Source: Virgibacillus sp. 7505
Lineage (GTDB): Bacteria; Bacillota; Bacilli; Bacillales; Amphibacillaceae
Length of the DNA: 64,000 bases
Direction of reading: 5' to 3'
NCBI RefSeq assembly: GCF_002272135.1
Contig: NZ_NPBF01000033.1
Location: 1-64,000, forward strand
Below, piece after piece: positions 5,917 through 23,023 of the stretch. Every line of letters begins with the position of its first letter. The stretch's first letter is position 1. Both the position numbers and the translations under genes were made by a program. The notes under the pieces are model-generated. The model ran no database searches. It worked only from the letters and a program-made list of their open reading frames with translations, and had not been told where the DNA came from.

Positions 5917-6026
5917 GTAAATTAATTGTAAATTTTCCTTTACACTAAAGAGATTTGATTTGCTAAATAAGCGCATGTAGCGTAAAAATAAGAGAGTACA
6001 ATTTGTCAGAGAGAGGATTCAGGGAA

Positions 6027-6596
6027 ATGCTAAAACACGTTATCGCTTATGCACACGAACTGATGGAGCAAGTGATTCAGCCAGGAGATACTGTCATTGA
6101 TGCAACATGCGGAAATGGGAACGATACACTCGTACTCAGCCGTTATGTCGGCGAAGATGGAAAGGTGCTGGCATTCGATATACAGGAGCAGGCCATCGAA
6201 ATGACGAGTAAGCACTTAAGCCTGCATGATGTCACGAATACGACGTTGATTCTGGACAGCCACCAGCGTGTCGATCATTATATAACTCCCGAAGATGAAG
6301 GGAAGCTTGCTGGAGCCATTTTCAATTTAGGCTATTTGCCAGGGAGCAGTAAAGCTATTACCACCAATGCAGAAAGCACGATTACTGCAATTGAGAAAAT
6401 CCGTCACGCAATGAAACCCGGCGGCAGAATCGTTTTGGTCGTTTATCATGGCCATCCGGAAGGCGCCATTGAAAAAGAAGGACTGCTTGCCCACGTAAAG
6501 GATTATGATCAAAAACATTACGCCGTCTTGCAGTACCGTTTCCTTAACCAAAAGAATACTCCGCCATTCATCATTGCAATCGAGAAGAAAAAATGA
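6027..6596 (+). CDS. mnmM: SAM-dependent tRNA (mnm5s2U34) methyltransferase MnmM (YtqB)
   Basis: A 189-residue class I methyltransferase. The SAM-binding motif I is DATCGNGND near residue 28, followed by acidic motif II (AFDI) and the NLGYLPG catalytic-side motif. The B. subtilis homologue YtqB was shown to methylate the nm5 wobble-uridine intermediate of tRNAs, completing mnm5(s2)U34 in organisms lacking MnmC. An upstream in-frame TTG could add 8 residues, but the ATG at 6027 follows GAGAGGATTCAGGGAA and is preferred. In B. subtilis its neighbour is ytpB; here 7.4 kb of other genes lies between them. Its last codons are part of the repeat that brackets that insert. Confidence 0.88.
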   Translation: MLKHVIAYAHELMEQVIQPGDTVIDATCGNGNDTLVLSRYVGEDGKVLAFDIQEQAIEMTSKHLSLHDVTNTTLILDSHQRVDHYITPEDEGKLAGAIFNLGYLPGSSKAITTNAESTITAIEKIRHAMKPGGRIVLVVYHGHPEGAIEKEGLLAHVKDYDQKHYAVLQYRFLNQKNTPPFIIAIEKKK

Positions 6597-6638
6597 AAGA
6601 AGCGCGAGCCCCTGGCCAATCGGGGTACGCGCTTCTTT
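6582..6638. repeat. Left 57-bp direct repeat bracketing the catabolic insert
   Basis: This segment contains the last codons of mnmM plus a terminator hairpin. It recurs at 13961-14017 in the same orientation with 56 of 57 bases identical (only G/A differs, in the hairpin loop). In this copy the mnmM coding part is genuine and the ytpB side is missing. Confidence 0.95.
6598..6638. terminator. Bidirectional terminator, mnmM / insert operon
   Basis: The stem AAGAAGCGCG / CGCGCTTCTT with inner CCCC/GGGG pairs is followed by TTTTTT on the plus side and TTTCATTTTTT on the minus side. It can end both mnmM transcription and the minus-strand catabolic operon. Confidence 0.85.
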
Positions 6639-6688
6639 TTTATAGCTTTCAGCAAGAAACTTGATAATATTCGGTGTTATACATATAC

Positions 6689-7666
6689 TCAAAGTCTGTT
6701 TTTTAAAAACTGATACGCCATCTGATCAGCTTCCTCTCCCATTGTGGGGCCGTGATTAGCCTTGGAAGCAGCTAGATACATAGCCTCCGCACCAGAAGAC
6801 ACTAGGGCATTATAAAGGCTCTCGCTTTGCTCAATCGGTACCAGAGGGTCTTTACTCCCATGCAAAATCATCATCGGTGGATTATCGGCGCTTGCGTATG
6901 TAATCGGACTGCATTTTTTGGCTAGTTCTATATACTTCCAATCCAGTTCACCCGTATCACCTCTTTCCAGCAATCCATTCAAATCCAACAACGATTTTCC
7001 AGGCTCAGTATATCCAAGAATTTGGGTTACAACAGTATCCATGGACTTGTCTGCATGATCAACTTCTGTTCCAGACAAATTCTTTAATGCTGCATTGGTA
7101 TCACTCTTGATGAGTTCTACTAAGTCGGATGGCGGATAAAAAATTGCTGCTGCCCTTACCGCACTTGTATATTCTTGGTTACCGCCGACATCCCCTTCCA
7201 TTTCCCTGCAATTTGCGCTCATTGCGACCATTGCTGCTAGATGTCCGCCAGCAGAGTTCCCCAACACGCCAATTCGTTCAGGATCGATATGGTATCTATT
7301 TGCATTCGCTTTCAAATAACGCACCACTCCCTTGCAGTCATGAATGCACGCCGGGAAAACAGACTGACTGGCCAAGCGATAGGATGGAGATACAATGGTA
7401 TATCCTTGTTCTACCAACTTTATAAGTTCCCTGAAATATACTGCTTTCTGGGTAACCTGCTTGTATTCTCCATACATCCACCCACCACCAAAATAGTAAA
7501 TGATGCAGGGACCTGGAGTTTTCTGGTTAAGGTCTTGATAAATGTCCATTTTCAGTGTGTATGACTCACCAGTATCAAGCGCTACCTCGGCAAAGGATAT
7601 ATCTTCGCAGCGCGGCGGCCGGCCTGGCGGACATAATGGTTTTACATTAGAAATCTGTTGTCCCAT
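6689..7666 (-). CDS. Alpha/beta hydrolase, esterase-lipase (BD-FAE-like) type
   Basis: A 325-residue cytoplasmic alpha/beta hydrolase. The oxyanion-hole region YYFGGGWMYG precedes the nucleophile elbow GNSAGG, and a late segment carries ILHGSKDPLVP with the catalytic Asp and NHGPT with the His. This layout is typical of acetyl-xylan/feruloyl-esterase-like and hormone-sensitive-lipase-like enzymes. The start ATG was chosen because GGGAGGAAACGTGT is directly upstream; an upstream in-frame ATG lacks a site. It is the last gene of the minus-strand insert. De-esterification of an acylated sugar acid is a plausible job but is inference. Confidence 0.85.
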   Translation of the reverse strand: MGQQISNVKPLCPPGRPPRCEDISFAEVALDTGESYTLKMDIYQDLNQKTPGPCIIYYFGGGWMYGEYKQVTQKAVYFRELIKLVEQGYTIVSPSYRLASQSVFPACIHDCKGVVRYLKANANRYHIDPERIGVLGNSAGGHLAAMVAMSANCREMEGDVGGNQEYTSAVRAAAIFYPPSDLVELIKSDTNAALKNLSGTEVDHADKSMDTVVTQILGYTEPGKSLLDLNGLLERGDTGELDWKYIELAKKCSPITYASADNPPMMILHGSKDPLVPIEQSESLYNALVSSGAEAMYLAASKANHGPTMGEEADQMAYQFLKNRL

Positions 7667-7837
7667 ACACGTTTCCTCCCAATATATATTACAGTCTTTT
7701 ATAGACCGCCTAGTTGATAAAGGATTCATCCTGATTTGGAATCAAGCTCTCTATCAGGTTAAAACAAAACGACTCCAGCTTAATCCTCGTTATACAAGCT
7801 GATTGCATTCCATTCATCAGTTCCTGTTATTACATAA

Positions 7838-9121
7838 TCAACTTACAGGGAACATAATCATCGCACCAACACTTAGCGCGAATATTCGAATCACATACAT
7901 AGGTACGGAGAACAGCCAGAACTGCGGCAGCTTATACTTACCCATACCTAAGATCATAGCAGGCATACCATCGACTGGCATGTAGCCGCCGTTCCATGCA
8001 GATATTACAACTGCAACCGCTGCAGCAGTTGGATCAAGACCCAAACTCAGGCTTGTTGCAATAGCGATCGGTGCAAAGATATATACAGAACCCATATTTG
8101 AACCAGTAAACGTAGCACATGTACTAGTTAAAAGAGCAAAAATGAAGATCAGCATGAATGGACTGATATTAGTCCCTAAAGAATTTGCCACGTAGTCTCC
8201 TACCATAGCTGTGAATCCAGTCTCAGCCAACGCATTGGCAACCCCTATAACACCGGCCATTAACAGGATGACTGGTGCACCCATATTATCTCGAACTTCC
8301 TTGAAGTCAAGTACATTAATTATCAGCAAGAATGCCCCAGCCAGGCCAGGTATGACATAAGCCGCTTCGCCAAATAAATTCATGAGCATCATGCCTGCTA
8401 CACTTAAGACAAAAGCCGCTATCGTAGCGTATTCTTTCCATTGAGGCATGGTATTGATTTCAGACGCAACTGCCACTTCATCAAATCCAGAATCTTCCGA
8501 AATCGGATGATCCGGCAATAGACGATAAGCAACCAAAGCCCACGCCAAAAAACCAAGGGTCAAGATGAAATTCACCACTGCAAACTTAGACATAGAAAGC
8601 CCGCCGGTAAATCCAGCTGTTTCCAGTACACTGACAGTAACACCATAAAACAGCGCCACATTGAAAGGAATCAAAGGATGGTTAGTCGCAAATCCCAAAG
8701 GCATCATTAATTTAGACGTAGGCATTTTTTTATTGTAAGGGATAGTAGATATCAAAGATAAAATAAGCACGTAGTATCCAGTGGAACCAGGTCCAGCTAA
8801 ACTGGCACCAAACATAACCACTACAATCAAAAGAGCATAACTTTTGTATCCTCCCTTATTCACCAAAGCAAGCATAGAACTTTGAACCTTACCAATTACA
8901 CTCGTCTTCATTAGTCCCGCCATGACAACCATAAAGCCGGCGACCATGATAACGCTTGAATTTACAAAGCCGGCGAAAGCCTCGGGAACTGTGGCCAGAC
9001 CTGTCACTACAAGCAAAAGGGAAGCTATGAGTGGTGGTGCGCCGAAGGCAAACTTATCTGACATGATCATCACAATCATCAGCACCAAGATACCAAGTGC
9101 AAGATACATATCCATTGTCAT
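7838..9121 (-). CDS. SLC13/CitM-type anion permease
   Basis: A 427-residue integral membrane protein with about ten or more hydrophobic helices and no signal peptide. It begins with a helix followed by SDKFAFGAPPLIASLLLVVTG, and both halves carry duplicated Gly/Ser/Thr-rich stretches (GASLAGPGSTGYY and TFTGSNMGSVYIFAPIA). This is the organisation of ArsB/SLC13/CitM-like ion transporters, which carry di- and tricarboxylates or related anions with H+ or Na+. The ATG follows AGAGGAGTAACAAAA. In this operon it is the obvious uptake protein for the acidic substrate, whose identity is unknown. Confidence 0.82.
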   Translation of the reverse strand: MTMDMYLALGILVLMIVMIMSDKFAFGAPPLIASLLLVVTGLATVPEAFAGFVNSSVIMVAGFMVVMAGLMKTSVIGKVQSSMLALVNKGGYKSYALLIVVVMFGASLAGPGSTGYYVLILSLISTIPYNKKMPTSKLMMPLGFATNHPLIPFNVALFYGVTVSVLETAGFTGGLSMSKFAVVNFILTLGFLAWALVAYRLLPDHPISEDSGFDEVAVASEINTMPQWKEYATIAAFVLSVAGMMLMNLFGEAAYVIPGLAGAFLLIINVLDFKEVRDNMGAPVILLMAGVIGVANALAETGFTAMVGDYVANSLGTNISPFMLIFIFALLTSTCATFTGSNMGSVYIFAPIAIATSLSLGLDPTAAAVAVVISAWNGGYMPVDGMPAMILGMGKYKLPQFWLFSVPMYVIRIFALSVGAMIMFPVS

Positions 9122-9494
9122 TTTTGTTACTCCTCTCTTAAGTGATGACACTTTGCCATCATCTTGAAGACTTCCTAGAGTCTCTTATGAGTTGCACATC
9201 ATACTCCCTTACAATCTCGAGCTAATCCCTCCCGATGAAGCGGTTACATTTTAAGGCGCTCCAACGGCAATTTTATATAGGAGCATGTTAAACCGATATC
9301 TCAGATTGCTCTGCTGCAATTCAACCGCGCACCTTTACTAGCAATGTGTTCAAACTATATGCGACAGCGTTGCATGAAAGTGTGCTGCGGCTGCTATGCA
9401 AACGCAGCACACCGATGCTAGAGTATTAGGAGACAGCCGCTATGTCGCCCCACACTCTATTCATTTACTGGTAGATTCATCTGGCCCTTTCTAC
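9122..9494. other. Intergenic region with hairpin and cre-like box
   Basis: No gene is visible here. It contains the 10-bp inverted repeat at 9380-9412 and, on the minus strand, AAAATGTAACCGCTTCAT at about 9238-9255. The latter resembles a catabolite-responsive element with two mismatches, and a similar AAAATGTAACC block lies in front of the YhcH gene (about 11175-11185). The region could hold a secondary promoter for the permease. Confidence 0.5.
9380..9412. repeat. Perfect 10-bp inverted repeat between sialidase-like and permease genes
   Basis: GTGTGCTGCG and CGCAGCACAC are separated by 13 nt. No U-tract follows on either strand, so it is more likely an intercistronic stability/processing hairpin or a protein site than a terminator. 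Confidence 0.7.
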
Positions 9495-10658
9495 TTAGCT
9501 TATTTCTCCAGAAGTTGGATTGTAGACCCCTTCGTATTCGCGCTTTGCTCCATAAATGTCCTCAACTGAAAAACCATTATATTTTACACACATTCTATTT
9601 TTATACGCGTAAACTAGGTGTAGATACCCTTGCGGATCTTGATAAATAGTTGGATATTCGAACTGTGAATTGTTCGTTTTATTCTCCACTCCAATGAAAC
9701 CTTCAGCGTGTTCTATAATCCGGCCAATCGGCCAAGTTTTACCAGCATCCTCCGACACTGAAACTACGACAGGGTTTCTTAATCCAGGCCAAGCTACTTT
9801 GCCTTTTTCAGGGTTATTAGCTGAATTAGCGTTATATGCAATCGCAATTGCACCGTTATCCAGTTTGATTGCGCTTACACTTGAATTGTTATTTGGCAAG
9901 GTTGTTGGCTCAGGAGCTGTCCACGAATCTCCATAATCGGTCGACTCACTTCTATATATATAATCTGCGAATCTGCTTCTCATAAATGCCACTAGATGAC
10001 CATTCTCCAATTCTATGACGTTGGCATGTACTCGTCCATTACTATCAGGCATACGTACTTCTTTCCAAGTCAGTCCTTCATCGTCCGACACATGCATTAC
10101 TGTGGGATCATTCGTCAGACCAAATTCGGAATCCTCACATACCCACGTGCTGAAAATCCATCTGCCATTACTTAATACTTGAATAGCTTGTCGTGCAAAA
10201 GTACCTTGCTGGTCGAACAACACTTCTGGCTTGGACCAACTTTCACCATTGTCACTTGTTTTTTGATACTTAATAATGGAAGTGAATTGCATATTATCTT
10301 TATCTGGCTGTCTGCCTTCCTGGGAAGTATAGATCAACCAAACGGAATTATCTGGTGCATGGAAGAATGATGGGTTTTGCTCACTGCGCGTATCGTCCTG
10401 TGAGATGATTTTCGGTTCGTTCCACTCTTGGGAGAGATGATCAAATTTAGATAATACAATTGAAATATCCGGGCTGCCTTCAAATGAACCAGCAAACCAT
10501 GCACATAGCAAATCACCATTTTCCAACTTTGTAACAGTCGGTGCATGTGCAGTTGAAAATGGTCCAGATGGAATCAAAGAAAAATCAATATTTGTATATG
10601 CATCATGATATAATTTACCGTTTGGAATTGACTCGTTAATTACTATTTTATTACTCAT
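9495..10658 (-). CDS. Cytoplasmic sialidase-like (BNR repeat) beta-propeller protein
   Basis: A 387-residue protein without a signal peptide. It has repeated Asp-box (SxDxGxTW) elements: SDNGESW, SDDEGLTW, STDYGDSW and SEDAGKTW. The N-terminal AHAPTVTKLENGDLL and the central FMRSRFADYIYRS are typical of the BNR_2 predicted-sialidase family. The canonical FRIP motif of secreted GH33 sialidases is not seen. The enzyme is therefore predicted to act inside the cell on an imported small glycoside or sugar acid, and could be a hydrolase or a lyase. The start was placed at ATG 10658 behind AAGGTGAATAGT. It lies 22 bp downstream of the YhcH gene in one operon. Confidence 0.82.
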   Translation of the reverse strand: MSNKIVINESIPNGKLYHDAYTNIDFSLIPSGPFSTAHAPTVTKLENGDLLCAWFAGSFEGSPDISIVLSKFDHLSQEWNEPKIISQDDTRSEQNPSFFHAPDNSVWLIYTSQEGRQPDKDNMQFTSIIKYQKTSDNGESWSKPEVLFDQQGTFARQAIQVLSNGRWIFSTWVCEDSEFGLTNDPTVMHVSDDEGLTWKEVRMPDSNGRVHANVIELENGHLVAFMRSRFADYIYRSESTDYGDSWTAPEPTTLPNNNSSVSAIKLDNGAIAIAYNANSANNPEKGKVAWPGLRNPVVVSVSEDAGKTWPIGRIIEHAEGFIGVENKTNNSQFEYPTIYQDPQGYLHLVYAYKNRMCVKYNGFSVEDIYGAKREYEGVYNPTSGEIS

Positions 10659-10680
10659 ACTATTCACCTTATCTTTCTAT

Positions 10681-11121
10681 TTAAATTTCGATTTTAATAA
10701 CTGCTTTTTTATAATTCGTCGTTTCATCTATATGTTTTAGAGATTTATGTCCATCGTGAGGCAGACAAATGTAGGCCATACCTTTATTGATTTTCATAGT
10801 CGTTTTCGGACTGCCGTTTAATCGAACGACATCTTTCTCGGCATTGTATGTAACATCTACTGCTAATTGATCAATGGGTGCCCATGCTACATATTCCGAT
10901 CCATCCAATACAATTTGAATATCGATATATTTTTTATGAGCTTCAAACGTCCCTTCATCTATGTGAGTCGTAGATCCTTCCTGAAAGAACAAATAGCCTC
11001 CATCAAAATCAAATCGCTTATTATAATCTATCTTTGCTTCTTTGAATTTCTTTAAACCGTTGTCGAATTTTGGATTTAAGGATTTATACTCATCCAAATT
11101 CTCTATTACATCGAAAATCAC
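10681..11121 (-). CDS. YhcH/YjgK/YiaL family protein (NanQ-like anomerase)
   Basis: A 146-residue DUF386 (YhcH) family protein. Family members are small cupin-like proteins; E. coli NanQ (YhcH) speeds anomer interconversion of N-acetylneuraminate. The sequence begins IFDVIENLDEY as expected and contains the conserved HKKYIDIQIVLDGSEY and CLPHDGHKS segments with metal-type His residues. A GTG start at 11121 is preferred because AGGAAAGAG precedes it and it matches the family start; the ATG seven codons earlier has no ribosome binding site. Together with the sialidase-like protein it suggests a cyclic sugar-acid substrate. Confidence 0.85.
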   Translation of the reverse strand: MIFDVIENLDEYKSLNPKFDNGLKKFKEAKIDYNKRFDFDGGYLFFQEGSTTHIDEGTFEAHKKYIDIQIVLDGSEYVAWAPIDQLAVDVTYNAEKDVVRLNGSPKTTMKINKGMAYICLPHDGHKSLKHIDETTNYKKAVIKIEI

Positions 11122-11294
11122 ATAATTCACTCTTTCCTGCATTAACGGTATGAACTAACTTCTTCCCCAGATAACGGGTTACATTTTTCACATAAGCTTC
11201 TTTGATAACTTCCTGAGCAAGATTCTAGGTTCGACACCCATACTGAGATTTTTGGGGATCAAGCACCCATTTTGCATAATGACTATTTTAATTC

Positions 11295-12299
11295 TTATTT
11301 CAAAACTTCCTTTGGAGACAAGTCAGCTGCGGATTGGATAGCCGCAAGCATACTTCTTTCATCTGCAATATTTTTTCCGGCAATATCAAATGCAGTACCA
11401 TGGTCCACGGAGGTACGAATAACACCGCCATTTAAACCAACCGTGATATTGACCCCCTCTTCCAGGCCTAATACCTTTATCGGAACATGGCCTTGATCAT
11501 GATAACAGGCAACGATCAAATCAAAATCACCACGAACTGCTCGGAAAAACACAGTGTCTGCAGGATGCGGACCGCTTACATTTATGCCTTCAGAAAATGC
11601 TTCCTGTATTCCAGGAACTAGTTTTTCTTCTTCTTCCCCTTCACCAAACAACCCATTTTCACCCGCGTGTGGATTAATTCCGCAAACCGCGATGCTTGGA
11701 TTTGTATATCCTGCACGTGTCAACGTTTCGTGAGCAAGCTTTACAACCTTATACGTTCGTTCTGGCGTGATAGACTCTACTGCTTTAATCAAGCCAACGT
11801 GTGTGGTTAAATGGATGACTTTTAGTTTTGGCGAAGATAACATCATGGAATAATCAGCTGTTTCCGTTAATTCTGCAAGAATTTCAGTATGTCCTGGATA
11901 TAGATGTCCTCCTTTGTGGAGGGCTTCTTTATTTAATGGCGCAGTACAGATCGATTGAATCTCCTTCTTTTTAGCCGACTCAACTGCCGTTTTCAAATAT
12001 TGGAAGGCAGCATCTCCTGCTTTTGGGGATAACTCTCCAAAAGGTAAATCAGCTGGCAATAAATCCAAATCAATACAATCGATTCTGCCAAATTCAAATT
12101 TACTATCTGAGACAGATGCAATAGTCTCAACAGTTAATGGAGATTGTGTGACGCGGATGGCTCTTTCAATTATTTTCGCATCACCGATCACAATCGGTCT
12201 GCATATATCGTAAACAGCTGTATGGCTCAAGGCTTTTACAATAATTTCAGGACCCACACCTGCGGCATCACCCATGGTAATCCCTATAATCGGCTTCAC
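11295..12299 (-). CDS. PdxA-like 4-hydroxythreonine-4-phosphate / threonate-4-phosphate dehydrogenase
   Basis: A 334-residue NAD-dependent decarboxylating dehydrogenase of the PdxA family. Conserved parts include ITMGDAAGVGPEI at the start, SICTAPLNKEAL, GHTEILAELT, GINPHAGENGLFG and the metal-site region YHDQGH. The start is a GTG behind GGGAGGGAATATA. Besides PdxA of vitamin B6 synthesis, the family includes PdxA2, which oxidises D-threonate/erythronate 4-phosphates. The operon context (permease, Fe-ADH, sugar-acid proteins) favours a catabolic PdxA2-like role. The DUF1537 kinase that normally accompanies PdxA2 is absent, so the substrate may differ. Confidence 0.85.
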   Translation of the reverse strand: MKPIIGITMGDAAGVGPEIIVKALSHTAVYDICRPIVIGDAKIIERAIRVTQSPLTVETIASVSDSKFEFGRIDCIDLDLLPADLPFGELSPKAGDAAFQYLKTAVESAKKKEIQSICTAPLNKEALHKGGHLYPGHTEILAELTETADYSMMLSSPKLKVIHLTTHVGLIKAVESITPERTYKVVKLAHETLTRAGYTNPSIAVCGINPHAGENGLFGEGEEEEKLVPGIQEAFSEGINVSGPHPADTVFFRAVRGDFDLIVACYHDQGHVPIKVLGLEEGVNITVGLNGGVIRTSVDHGTAFDIAGKNIADERSMLAAIQSAADLSPKEVLK

Positions 12300-12377
12300 T
12301 ATATTCCCTCCCACGAACTTCATACTCGGCCTGTCAACATGACTTTCTCTTAGCCATGCTGAAAGCTATAGTGACAA

Positions 12378-13544
12378 CTAAACTAGTAATTTGCGATAAA
12401 TCGTTTCCATATCCTCTACACTTATATCCTTTGGATTGTTATCCAACAGACGTGTGACTTTCGAAGCCGAAATAGCTAATTCCGGGATATCTTCTTCTGT
12501 TACGCCATATTCCTTCAAGTTTTGTGGAATTTCCAGCATGTTCGTCCATTCTACAATACGGTCCACTACATTTTGAGCCACTTCTTCTTTTGAATGTCCT
12601 TGAATTTCAATGCCCATTGGTTCTGCTACAAGGTACAATCGATCTGTAATGCTATCCATATTAAATTCCATGACATGACGTAAAAGCATTGAATTTACTA
12701 CACCATGAGGAATTTTGAACTTTCCTCCCAATGGATAAGCCAGTGCATGTACAGCTGCTGTACCCGCTGCCGTCAGGGCCATCCCGCCATACATAGAACC
12801 AACAAGCATTTTTTCTCGCGCTTCAACAGACTGTCCATCTTGATAGGCTTCAACGATACTCGACGAGATAAGGCGAATAGATTCTAATGCAACCATGTCA
12901 CTGATTAAGTTTGCTTTGTTTGAGATAAATGATTCCAGTGAATGGGTAAACGCATCCATTCCTGTTGCAGCTGTAATAGGCTTTGGTAACCCTAAAGTTA
13001 AAAGCGGATCAAGGATTACAATGTTCGGCAGAAGATGCTTGCTTACTATTCCGACTTTTAATTCTTCATCAGGCAATGTAACGATCGCATTTGGCGTTAC
13101 TTCAGCTCCTGTACCTGAAGTAGTGGGAATTAACACTGTTGGGGTACCAGGTTTTTCAACTAAATCTGTTCCTAACAAATCACGGACTGATTTATTATTC
13201 GTTCTTAATACAGATAGAATTTTAGTGGTATCAAGAACGCTTCCTCCTCCAATACCAATTAATACGTCGTAATTTTCAGTGGATGTACTTTGAAATACTT
13301 CTTCGATGTTTTCAACTGTTGGTTCAGGAAGGATGTTCGTATTAACATCCGCCTTAATACCCTTTGCTGATAGTTGGTTTGTTATTTGATCTACAAACCC
13401 TAAATCTTCCATTGGCGGCTGTGTAATAATTAAAGCCGACTGTATTTTTGTGCCTACTAAATGAAGTTGCTCTCCTAAATCACCAAGAGAATTTGGTCCG
13501 GCAATAATATGGTCTGCTGTTTGAAATTTATATAACTTCTGCAT
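12378..13544 (-). CDS. Iron-containing alcohol dehydrogenase
   Basis: A 388-residue group III (Fe-ADH) dehydrogenase. It shows the NAD-binding GIGGGSVLDTTK motif, PTTSGTGAEVTPNAI, and the metal-binding region with GMDAFTHSLESF and HALAYPLGGKFKIPHG. It should interconvert an alcohol or hydroxy acid and an aldehyde or keto acid. The ATG before QKLYKFQTADHI was chosen for family length and because AAGGACAATACAAACGACA precedes it; an upstream in-frame ATG has no ribosome binding site. It is the first gene of the insert operon, behind a clear promoter with a cre-like site. Confidence 0.88.
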   Translation of the reverse strand: MQKLYKFQTADHIIAGPNSLGDLGEQLHLVGTKIQSALIITQPPMEDLGFVDQITNQLSAKGIKADVNTNILPEPTVENIEEVFQSTSTENYDVLIGIGGGSVLDTTKILSVLRTNNKSVRDLLGTDLVEKPGTPTVLIPTTSGTGAEVTPNAIVTLPDEELKVGIVSKHLLPNIVILDPLLTLGLPKPITAATGMDAFTHSLESFISNKANLISDMVALESIRLISSSIVEAYQDGQSVEAREKMLVGSMYGGMALTAAGTAAVHALAYPLGGKFKIPHGVVNSMLLRHVMEFNMDSITDRLYLVAEPMGIEIQGHSKEEVAQNVVDRIVEWTNMLEIPQNLKEYGVTEEDIPELAISASKVTRLLDNNPKDISVEDMETIYRKLLV

Positions 13545-13664
13545 TGTCGTTTGTATTGTCCTTACCTCATTTCCTTCACTTTTTATGAATGCAATGGAGT
13601 ATAGTGTCACTAGCACTGGCATTCTTATTTAAATACCGCTAATACTGCTCCAGTCGAACACCTA

Positions 13665-13683
13665 TTGTTTAATTTTTAAACAA
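13665..13683. promoter_or_regulatory. Operator-like palindrome TTGTTTAA-N3-TTAAACAA
   Basis: A perfect 8-bp inverted repeat with a 3-bp spacer lies about 25 bp downstream of the predicted transcription start of the insert operon. The half-site TTGTTTAA recurs at 13727-13734 over the -35 region, about 60 bp away centre to centre. Two such sites suggest a looping repressor encoded elsewhere. Confidence 0.6.
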
Positions 13684-13692
13684 CATTCATTT

Positions 13693-13707
13693 TTATAACG
13701 CTTTCAT
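13693..13707 (-). promoter_or_regulatory. cre-like catabolite-responsive element
   Basis: On the minus strand ATGAAAGCGTTATAA matches the Bacillus cre consensus TGWAARCGYTWNCW except for one position (A instead of the late C). It lies just downstream of the -10 element, where CcpA binding would block transcription. Carbon catabolite repression of the insert operon is the inference. Confidence 0.6.
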
Positions 13708-13713
13708 AAATCC

Positions 13714-13742
13714 ATTATATATATCGTTGTTTAATTTATCAA
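13714..13742 (-). promoter_or_regulatory. Promoter of the catabolic insert operon
   Basis: TTGATA (13737-13742) and a perfect TATAAT (13714-13719) are 17 bp apart on the minus strand. A GTTG...CAAC imperfect palindrome (13726-13743), sharing TTGTTTAA with the downstream operator-like site, overlaps the -35 box. Confidence 0.75.
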
Positions 13743-13960
13743 CATCTTTTTTTGAAATTTACATGCACTGTCACCGGGAGATGGTATGGAAGCAAATCCG
13801 GATACACCTATCACAGTCACAAGCAATTTCCGAATGGTGTCATCCTGATATAATGTGGATTTGAAATGAGCTTAGAATGTCTTAACGGGTACCGGAGTAT
13901 GTACAGAAATCCCTGTTGTTCGACCTGTTCTGGTGTTCTGTTCTTAACAGCCGTTCATCA
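13743..13960. other. Non-coding stretch at right end of the insert
   Basis: No convincing gene. Short minus-strand open stretches exist in two different frames (about 13780-13870 and 13850-13950), which might be a decayed coding fragment, but neither has a start signal or a recognisable motif. The last ten bases resemble part of the mnmM 3' region just ahead of the direct repeat. Confidence 0.4.
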
Positions 13961-14017
13961 GAGAAGAAAAAATGAAAGAAGCGCGAGCCCCTAGCCAATC
14001 GGGGTACGCGCTTCTTT
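13961..14017. repeat. Right 57-bp direct repeat bracketing the catabolic insert
   Basis: Second copy of the sequence at 6582-6638, same orientation, 56 of 57 bases identical. It holds a stray copy of the mnmM tail (GAGAAGAAAAAATGA) plus the terminator. The ytpB stop codon and its last seven codons lie within it. Confidence 0.95.
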
Positions 14018-14018
14018 C
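13978..14018. terminator. Terminator overlapping the end of ytpB
   Basis: Same hairpin as at 6598-6638. On the minus strand the upstream arm encodes the last codons of ytpB and the TAG stop (13991-13993) lies in the loop, with TTTCATTTTTTC following. Confidence 0.85.
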
Positions 14019-15073
14019 ATTTTATTGTATGCCTTGATATTCAAATGGAAAAACTTCGATTTGTTGCCGCTTGCCTTGAGCAATGTTTTGATCATCTCTT
14101 TACTATCCGAAAGCAAACTCACTTTGCGATCTGCCAAGTACAGTCCGACAAGCCCGTGATGGACCATCTCATGGAATGACGCATGCGGTAGACGCTGGAC
14201 ACTTTCGTTCGTCCGTTCTATGAAGTATAGGAGTCTTTCCTTCATTTCCTCCGAGTCTCGGTAATAATGGCAGAAATTCAGATCGCCTTCCTCTTCATCC
14301 TCCATCTGATCAATATAGTAATCCAGCAGAATGTGAAGTCCTTGCATATATGGAAAATAGCTTTGATAGATATCATCAGCCAATTGCTGGTCGATTTCCA
14401 TCCCCATTCCATAAGATACAAAGCAGAAGATACCGAGTGTCGACCCGCTGCATGCCGAGAATTCATACCACGTAAGATCCCGGTGTTCCTCTTGATGCAG
14501 GGCAAACCAGTTTGTCAGTCTTTCAATCCGCTCTTCCTTCGCTACATGCTTGTGCACTTGCAAATCGCCGTATAATCCAGAAAGTTTCAGCAAATACGGC
14601 TGCAGAACTTGCAGATTGGGCTGTTTGCCGAGGATAGTCTGACACGTGAAAACAAGTGAGTGCAAGTATCCGCCGTCTTCTTTTTCATCACGCAATGCAT
14701 AATAATCCTTCAGCTTTTCACCTGGCTGCAATGCATCCAGCATTGATTGATGCAGCAGGCGAAAATCGTCTGGATCGAGTGAAGTACTGCGATCACATAA
14801 ATTATCGAGATAGTCACTGATAGTCTGATAGGCAATAATGAACTTGATTGCCTGCTTCCATGCATCACCAGCAAGCAGACTGTACACCGCTCCACCCTGG
14901 CAATGGAAGCGTTTGGTCCGAATACTCTCCAGCGCCTGCTTTCGCAGTTCCGGATCCGGTATCGCTTCTGCCCTCTGTGTCCATAGTTCCAATTCTTTAT
15001 GTACTTCCGGGAATATTTTCCGATATACTTGATGCATAAGTAAAACCGATGACTTTGGTATTTGTTGGGTCAT
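13991..15073 (-). CDS. ytpB: Tetraprenyl-beta-curcumene synthase (YtpB, DUF2600)
   Basis: A 360-residue protein of the large terpene cyclase family typified by B. subtilis YtpB, which converts C35 or C25 all-trans prenyl diphosphates to sesquarterpenes and related products. An aspartate-rich metal-binding segment, YLDNLCDRSTSLD, is near residue 90 and DYYIDQMEDEEEGD is in the second half. It is all-helical and cytosolic in appearance. The start ATG has GAGGAGCGAAATCACATT upstream. The last residues (MKEARTPIG) are encoded by the terminator stem, so the C-terminal tail is probably a by-product of the shared terminator rather than conserved protein. Confidence 0.88.
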   Translation of the reverse strand: MTQQIPKSSVLLMHQVYRKIFPEVHKELELWTQRAEAIPDPELRKQALESIRTKRFHCQGGAVYSLLAGDAWKQAIKFIIAYQTISDYLDNLCDRSTSLDPDDFRLLHQSMLDALQPGEKLKDYYALRDEKEDGGYLHSLVFTCQTILGKQPNLQVLQPYLLKLSGLYGDLQVHKHVAKEERIERLTNWFALHQEEHRDLTWYEFSACSGSTLGIFCFVSYGMGMEIDQQLADDIYQSYFPYMQGLHILLDYYIDQMEDEEEGDLNFCHYYRDSEEMKERLLYFIERTNESVQRLPHASFHEMVHHGLVGLYLADRKVSLLSDSKEMIKTLLKASGNKSKFFHLNIKAYNKMKEARTPIG

Positions 15074-22320: not shown

Positions 22321-22403
22321 TTTATCTGGCTAACAAAAGATAATGGATGGTTATTCTTGATGAAGCACTGCTATCTAAGTTTGTTTATACTAGTCAGCCA
22401 CCA

Positions 22404-22733
22404 CTATTTCCAATCCTGCGGTGCAGCTGATTCTTCCCAGTGAAGCAGAAGCGGATCAGAATAAAACAATTCCTTCGGCTGATGATATAAAGTTCTGAAG
22501 AAAAACTTATCTATGCAGCTTAGCCTCTCACTTGCCACAATACTTAAATTTACAGATGGCAATAGATGCTTCTGCAGACGGAGATTCAGCTGCGATTGAT
22601 ATCGATCAGCTATAACATAGGAAGACTCCAATCGTATGGAACCGATTCAGATACTGCCGAAGCTCGAAATACCCCGGACATAACAGCTTACCCATCCTCT
22701 GACTTCTAATAGCTTTATAATGACGTGAGTATT
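22404..22733 (-). pseudogene. Possible decayed gene fragment, unidentified
   Basis: Two overlapping minus-strand open stretches in different frames join around 22633 into a protein-like sequence (upstream part with PGYFELRQYLNRFHTI, downstream part with LSCIDKFFFRTLYHQPKEL). Neither part has a ribosome binding site. Amino acid composition looks coding, but the family is not recognised. A frameshifted remnant is one explanation, chance another. Confidence 0.25.
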
Positions 22734-23023
22734 AACAACTGCTGCTCCCTAAAGTAAGTATTTAACCTGACTCTAGTGCTGATGTCTCACTCCTCATCTA
22801 GGTATTATGCTTCCCTTTTGTAATCATTTCCAAAAAGTTTGTAGTTACTTATTACTGAATGTAGAATTTTGTAGGAAATTGTGAAGCGAATTCATGTAAA
22901 ATACGTAATGAATTGATAAGCTTTCCATACGGACTAATTTTTGACATCTATTGTAATAAGACATGCTCCGTTTGTAATAAGGTAACGGGGTCCGTGAAAA
23001 GCAAATTATTTTGGAGGGATTAG

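Follow-up and report, generated by a model that had tools for sequence, protein, structure and literature searches.

How did a block of six genes come to lie between two housekeeping genes, bracketed by two copies of their junction? This question is raised by a stretch of 64,000 nucleotides from Virgibacillus sp. 7505 (contig NZ_NPBF01000033.1, positions 1 to 64,000; hereafter the window), in which a catabolic insert separates mnmM from ytpB. The genome measures 3.66 Mb in 578 contigs, and its genus is treated here as Terribacillus. Our preferred answer, which we hold to be probable though by no means certain, is that the block is an integrase-free genomic island captured once in Terribacillus, exchanged between species by homologous recombination in the flanks and lost in one species (G007), and that its cargo cooperates with a second operon elsewhere in the genome. 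The study covers this one site in ten genomes of the genus and is a comparison between species: the window genome, a one-contig genome of 3.58 Mb from the same species (G061), and eight other species (G001 to G008).

The block between mnmM and ytpB

The sequence-only reading of this DNA had described direct repeats of 57 bp with 56 identical positions, and six minus-strand genes between mnmM and ytpB. Both descriptions held. A repeat search of the window returned the pair 6582-6638 and 13961-14017 at exactly the coordinates given by that reading (56/57 bases, 98%; spacing 7379), and open reading frames (ORFs) together with profile matches placed the six genes between mnmM and ytpB.

The same reading proposed aligning the mnmM-ytpB interval in relatives. 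The ytpB gene was searched in 61 genomes and was present in 56, from which the best 30 loci were fetched for comparison of the junction. In 21 of these 30 loci mnmM lies within 160 bp of ytpB, and in two it lies 746 and 982 bp away. The remaining seven have no mnmM in the fetched stretch: the window genome, G001 and G005 carry this insert, G026 and G014 carry other genes (about 2.5 and 4.6 kb, respectively), and two loci have ytpB at a contig end. Within the genus the block is present in the window genome, G061, G001, and G005, and sites with a single terminator and no genes in between were found in six of the eight other species (G002, G003, G004, G006, G007, and G008). These single-copy empty sites support insertion, and judged from the alignments the block between the repeats is an insertion. 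An assembly artefact was rejected because the one-contig genome G061 has the same arrangement; it is collinear with the window genome over 16 kb at 97.6% identity, with both repeats present. The G+C content of the insert is 41.0%, against 45.4% and 44.8% in the flanks.

The features of the locus are as follows (positions are those of the window).

6003-6596, plus strand: mnmM, tRNA U34 methyltransferase, left flank (NF053511, E 4.7e-70)
6582-6638, no strand: left direct repeat, mnmM end and bidirectional terminator, which also ends the insert operon (repeat search)
6639-6680, no strand: expected ytpB-tail remnant (not significant in the window genome or G061, significant in G005)
6689-7729, minus strand: alpha/beta hydrolase, BD-FAE family (PF20434, E 9.3e-56)
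7838-9151, minus strand: CitMHS/DASS-type anion transporter (PF03600, E 4.7e-23; TIGR00785 below cutoff)
9495-10667, minus strand: BNR_2 sialidase-like protein (PF13088, E 1.9e-63)
10681-11142, minus strand: YhcH/YjgK/YiaL protein, sugar anomerase family (PF04074, E 8.3e-28; N-acetylneuraminate anomerase NF040884 below cutoff)
11295-12323, minus strand: PdxA-family dehydrogenase (PF04166, E 1.1e-105)
12292-12377, limits approximate, minus strand: C-terminal remnant of a DUF1537-type kinase, a deletion scar between the alcohol dehydrogenase and PdxA (alignment to Litchfieldia salsa, Metabacillus niabensis, and Robertmurraya korlensis)
12378-13622, minus strand: iron-containing alcohol dehydrogenase, FeADH (PF25137, E 9e-55; PF00465, E 2.1e-42)
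13666-13750, minus strand: operon promoter region (TTGATA-17-TATAAT at 13742-13714, two operator-like repeats, cre-like site at 13693-13706)
13950-13974, plus strand: decayed mnmM-tail duplicate upstream of the right terminator (short in the window genome, 31/33 bases in G001)
13961-14017, no strand: right direct repeat, non-coding copy of the mnmM end and terminator encoding the last ytpB codons (repeat search)
13991-15073, minus strand: ytpB, DUF2600, right flank (PF10776, E 2.6e-141)

The absence of a visible integrase was also borne out. No integrase, transposase, or recombinase was recognised among the ORFs scanned in the window insert or in seven translated pieces of its intergenic regions, a scan that left aside the unaligned intergenic stretches of G001 and G005. 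The repeats thus enclose no recognised integrase gene of the kind found in an integrative element, and the transposase, terminal inverted repeats, and short target duplication of a transposon or composite insertion sequence (IS) are likewise missing; apart from the arms of the terminators, the repeat search of the window returned no terminal inverted repeats. As at a hotspot, related genomes differ in what they carry between these two core genes, and in the window insert no integrase or transposase was recognised. Four other genera (G011, G014, G022, and G026; loci L042-L045) have different genes between mnmM and ytpB, and no junction repeats were found bracketing those genes. An amino-acid ABC transporter set, named by eye, stands at the junction in two of these four genera. 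A plasmid origin was considered and no donor was found: among plasmid relatives of BNR_2, one record reaches 69.4% identity and the remaining 318 stay below 60%, and no plasmid matched the stretch 13600-13960.

The duplicated junction

The repeats are not a common terminator family of their own genome, the reading that the sequence-only account had named as its own undoing. By BLAST (E <= 0.001), no further full copy of the left junction occurs in that genome; only the two repeats and the right palindrome read backwards were returned. When the core was searched in the window with degenerate letters, the same three places came up, against none in 100 shuffles.

Both copies fold strongly. The left repeat gives -28 kcal/mol on one strand and -26.7 kcal/mol on the other (z -5.7 and -5.2), and the right terminator (13967-14024) gives -35.5 and -34.8 kcal/mol. 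The last ytpB codons and the stop are encoded within the right copy, and the sole mismatch between the two copies of the window genome falls on this stop, which is needed by the right copy only: CTA at 13991-13993 on the right, CTG on the left. The left terminator now separates mnmM from the insert operon, and the right one ends ytpB. Because each terminates a different gene set, the continued conservation of both would be explained. The duplication leaves every neighbouring transcript terminated, which may explain the tolerance of such a landing.

There are signs that the terminator copies homogenise within genomes. In the window genome the left and right cores differ at one position, and G005 has a letter common to both of its copies that is not found in the other rows compared. 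The number of differences between left and right copies in G005 (5 positions) and in G001 (11, mostly through an inverted loop) weighs against homogenisation. Conversion between the copies would require the same pairing that could excise the block. The G001 terminator on the mnmM side (L034, 9951-10003) has its loop inverted relative to the ytpB-side copy and the other rows compared. Its stem changes preserve pairing, and the arms are 92% complementary over 49 nt, which amounts to a hairpin inversion.

The duplicated piece was probably longer than 57 bp. The right copy of G001 retains 31 of 33 mnmM-tail bases, 22 columns beyond the 57 bp, with a score matched by 0/2000 shuffles and 0/400 pieces of its insert. 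In G005, the bases that follow the left terminator can be aligned with the ytpB tail (0/2000 shuffles against the G005 and G008 tails, 3/2000 against that of G007), and this score was reached by 0/400 insert pieces. From the remnants in these two genomes, the 57 bp are probably the surviving part of a duplicated junction of about 120 bp (~33 + 46 + 40 bp). The weaker remnants elsewhere weigh against this reconstruction. The ytpB-tail remnant is not significant in the window genome and G061 (p 0.41-0.62 in shuffles; 11% and 17.5% of control pieces equal the score) and is marginal in G001 (p 0.013-0.112; 3% of control pieces). For the mnmM tail, the remnant is weak in G061 (p 0.11; 6.5%) and G005 (p 0.04; 15%), and in the window genome most of its score comes from the 57 bp. 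The idea first proposed, an insertion with duplication of the junction, is borne out; the size of 57 bp and the choice of the terminator as landing site need correction, since with a duplicated piece of probably ~120 bp the insertion need not have been aimed at the terminator.

Probable exchange, gain, and loss

The flank alignment (16.7-18.1 kb aligning beyond asnB) gave the tree (window genome,((G001,G005),G007)) with support 100/100. Trees of the insert were built from four data sets (PdxA, BNR_2, the transporter, and the hydrolase with YhcH) and from the concatenation of the first three. In these trees G001 falls with the outgroups, separated from the window genome, G061, and G005 with support of 99.8-100/100. 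By the approximately unbiased (AU) test, a topology like that of the flanks was rejected for the insert (p 1e-95 for the three genes combined, 5e-5 for PdxA by itself), and for the flanks three alternatives were rejected, including one with G007 outside the carriers (p 5e-5 or less). Distances at four-fold sites show the same pattern: in the flanks the window genome is 0.299 from both G001 and G005, which are 0.178 apart; in the insert it is 0.335 from G001 and 0.247 from G005, with 0.312 between these two. The trees of insert and flanks conflict, so plain descent with the species does not account for the block.

Sites shared by the window genome and G005 were compared with those shared by G001 and G005. 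The ratio was 49:35 within 2 kb of the insert edges and 33:87 beyond (Fisher p 1.2e-5; the 2-kb limit was picked after viewing the site list). This was taken as pointing to recombination near the insert, in a direction that the sites leave unsettled. Trees of 3 kb at each edge placed the window genome outside G001, G005, and G007 (94 and 98).

According to the history that we favour, a single capture in a Terribacillus ancestor would have duplicated about 120 bp (mnmM tail, terminator, and ytpB tail), and the terminators would have been kept intact, each insulating different converging transcripts. The block would later have passed between species via homologous recombination through the flanking core genes, with deletions that differ by lineage. 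G007 would have lost it: either the two repeats recombined, or an empty allele took its place. The cargo (uptake, anomerase, and hydrolases) would work with a distant second operon holding a full kinase gene, an aldolase-like gene, and a regulator. A single gain is favoured because the promoter segment, the gene order, and the kinase tail are common to the carriers. The empty site of G007 is nested among carriers in the flank tree and by the AU test, which suggests that G007 lost the block. A precise loss by recombination between the repeats, as the sequence-only reading foresaw, would fit this nested empty site; the site gives a direct prediction on excision between repeats of such size.

Several observations count against this history. 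The 3-kb edge trees do not resolve G001, G005, and G007 (G001 with G007 at just 50 and 60). Within 1 kb of the edges, sites shared by the window genome and G005 (19) equal those shared by G001 and G005 (19), and outgroup-polarised sites in the 14-15 kb interval are derived in G001 and G007 in 8 cases and in the window genome and G005 in 5. These counts make the direction of exchange uncertain. On the species tree, one gain with one loss takes as many steps as two gains, and G007 may never have carried the insert. In addition, G001 PdxA stands closer to its counterparts in Litchfieldia and similar genera than to those of the window genome and G005, a pattern that neither BNR_2 nor the transporter shows, so one capture is not established for all genes. 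Individual genes of the block may be replaced on their own, as the comparison of PdxA between the window (11295-12323) and the G001 locus L034 suggests.

The equal step count is also the first point in favour of the junction having gained the genes independently at least twice, in the lineage of the window genome and in that of G001 and G005, with G007 ancestrally empty and no loss. We regard such repeated gain as rather unlikely. It would agree with the four-fold distances of G001 PdxA, hydrolase, and YhcH, which are about as far from those of the window genome as from those of other genera, or farther, and with remnant letters in the right copy that are lineage-specific (a TAA stop in G001 and G005, TGA in the window genome). 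However, such letters are also expected if the copies convert each other, and the gene order is the same apart from deletions, the position is the same, the promoter segment is 87% identical over 85 bp between the window genome and G001, and all four carriers have the kinase tail before PdxA.

A recombinase-free mobile unit seems improbable to us. Such a repeat-bearing block would be excised, through host recombination between its repeats, as a circle with one junction copy and re-enter empty mnmM/ytpB sites, recreating the repeats; it would travel with the second operon and depend on it for its kinase. We find it harder still to believe in a former site-specific element, integrative or IS-borne, with a deleted recombinase and the repeat as its attachment site. 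Repeats in direct orientation that overlap the end of a gene and a palindrome do resemble attachment sites, and the insert has lost other genes; however, no recombinase was recognised in the scanned insert ORFs or the seven intergenic pieces, the only terminal inverted repeats are the terminator arms, and usual attachment cores are shorter than the reconstructed ~120-bp repeat. Illegitimate capture at the repair of a staggered break or by natural transformation, with ~120 bp filled in on both sides and purely vertical descent thereafter, would account for a long target duplication without a recombinase and could draw on the ComEC-type gene of the window genome (a family that also matches in 10/14 control genomes), but it is very hard to credit because the conflicting trees reject vertical descent alone, and it is compatible with the favoured history only if limited to the first capture.

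Two known systems are close to the favoured history. Integrase-free hotspots, as presented in a 2017 study, exchange genes by recombination at the flanking core genes (PMC5635113). The Terribacillus block resembles them in having accessory genes between two core genes, no recognised integrase, patchy presence, and, tentatively, a recombination signal near the edges; it differs in being bracketed by a duplicated core-gene junction and in being compared between species. The landing pattern, which had been called unusual, is less so in this light: the conflict between insert and flanks points to exchange between species, and recombination at flanking core genes is a route documented for such hotspots in that study. 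The microcin H47 island of Escherichia coli, according to two reports (PMC3191183, PMC5426353), measures 13 kb, has imperfect direct repeats and no recombinase gene, and is matched by empty sites in other strains; polymerase chain reaction (PCR) revealed both its excision and its integration, also in a recA-deficient strain. Like that island, the block is small, flanked by direct repeats, without a recognised recombinase gene, and matched by single-copy empty sites; unlike that island's repeats, those of the block are a duplicated housekeeping-gene junction. By this comparison, the Terribacillus block fits between integrase-free hotspots and the microcin H47 island. Its distinctive features are a repeat that is a duplicated housekeeping-gene junction keeping the transcripts insulated, and a possible link to a second locus. 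No description of this locus was found in titles and abstract openings of open-licence papers, a search that does not show its absence from print. The locus would be a worked case of accessory metabolism entering and leaving a genome without a mobility gene.

The cargo and the second operon

From the promoter inward, the order is FeADH, the deleted kinase, PdxA, YhcH, BNR_2, the CitMHS/DASS-type transporter, and the alpha/beta hydrolase. DASS-type carriers import an organic anion; DUF1537-type kinases and then PdxA-type dehydrogenases act on four-carbon acid sugars. YhcH is an anomerase according to PMC8141875. The promoter-like sequence TTGATA-17-TATAAT matches the consensus at 11/12 positions. 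The cre-like site (13693-13706) has one mismatch to the cre consensus and is weak alone, since the window holds 3 such matches against 2.5 expected. Two related palindrome-like sequences (83% alike) lie beside the insert promoter, within 13666-13750. The operator-like sequence occurs at 29 places with <=3 mismatches, against 10 in a reversed control, and the only other place with one mismatch is inside a coding gene. No regulator gene was recognised within the insert by profile scan.

Relatives of the insert genes occur outside the genus. One genome scan gave 12 relatives of BNR_2, 2 in Terribacillus and 10 at loci of other Bacillus-like genera with 87-90% identity, whereas ytpB of the Litchfieldia genome (G054) is only 49% identical. 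The Litchfieldia salsa locus (L066) has the same gene order as the insert, with protein identities of 84-89% for PdxA, BNR_2, and the transporter and 76% for FeADH, and in Bacillus sp. AFS006103 YhcH and the hydrolase also stand beside BNR_2 and the transporter. Among the BNR_2 loci of other genera, the two whose ORFs were read (Litchfieldia salsa and Neobacillus sp. SuZ13) carry three further genes, named by eye: a sigma-54-type regulator resembling PrpR, a DapA-family gene, and a kinase of the DUF1537 type; compared with L066, the Terribacillus insert is without the regulator, the DapA-family gene, and the kinase body. Judging from these relatives, the cargo is a catabolic operon of the type carried by other Bacillus-like genera. 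The kinase tail before PdxA is kept in the window genome, G061, G005, and G001, and is longest in G001, whereas FeADH is only a fragment in G005 and is missing from the insert of G001. These tails and losses imply that the kinase body was deleted before or after capture, followed by different trimming in each lineage.

Of an FeADH/kinase/PdxA operon, the insert thus holds FeADH, PdxA, and the kinase tail only. The full set is found at the C41 locus (contig C41 of the window genome, locus L092, 5550-13334), which comprises a regulator, a DapA-like gene, FeADH, a kinase (PF07005), PdxA, and an Nramp-like transporter (names partly by eye) and sits between a subtilisin-like gene and YebC. On the single 3.58-Mb contig of G061, this second operon is found at 0.11 Mb, the insert at 2.3 Mb. 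A C41-type kinase with >=90% identity occurs in exactly four of the ten genomes, namely the window genome, G061, G005, and G001; the best matches in the other six are 47% (G006), 38% (G007 and G008), and 29% (G002), with none in G003 and G004. A C41-type operon is absent between YebC and the subtilisin-like gene in G007, G008, and G002 (this comparison did not include G003 and G004, and in G005 YebC is on another contig). Insert and second operon are thus co-distributed (4/4 carriers vs 0/6 others, in a small and phylogenetically non-independent sample). From the known roles of these protein families, we propose that uptake and early steps would come from the insert, with the C41 kinase standing in for the one it has lost. 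The matching distribution makes a two-locus trait testable.

Four genes of the C41 operon give distances of 0.17-0.21 between the window genome and G005 and 0.27-0.37 between the window genome and G001, as in the insert, and the neighbouring subtilisin gene gives 0.29 and 0.30 for the same pairs. A shared transfer of insert and second operon is only suggested by these values. Against a coupled history stand a diverged second operon beside YebC in G006, which has no insert, and the rooted four-gene tree of the second operon, which is not resolved: PdxA of that operon supports the species tree, and the Nramp-like gene prefers a third topology. No flanking repeats of >=22 bases were found at the second operon, so that it either entered in another way or has lost the traces of its entry.

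Away from the block, alignments of the window to all eight congeners compared break at or near ~22382-22773, with varying lengths, and a small stretch there may be special to the window genome.

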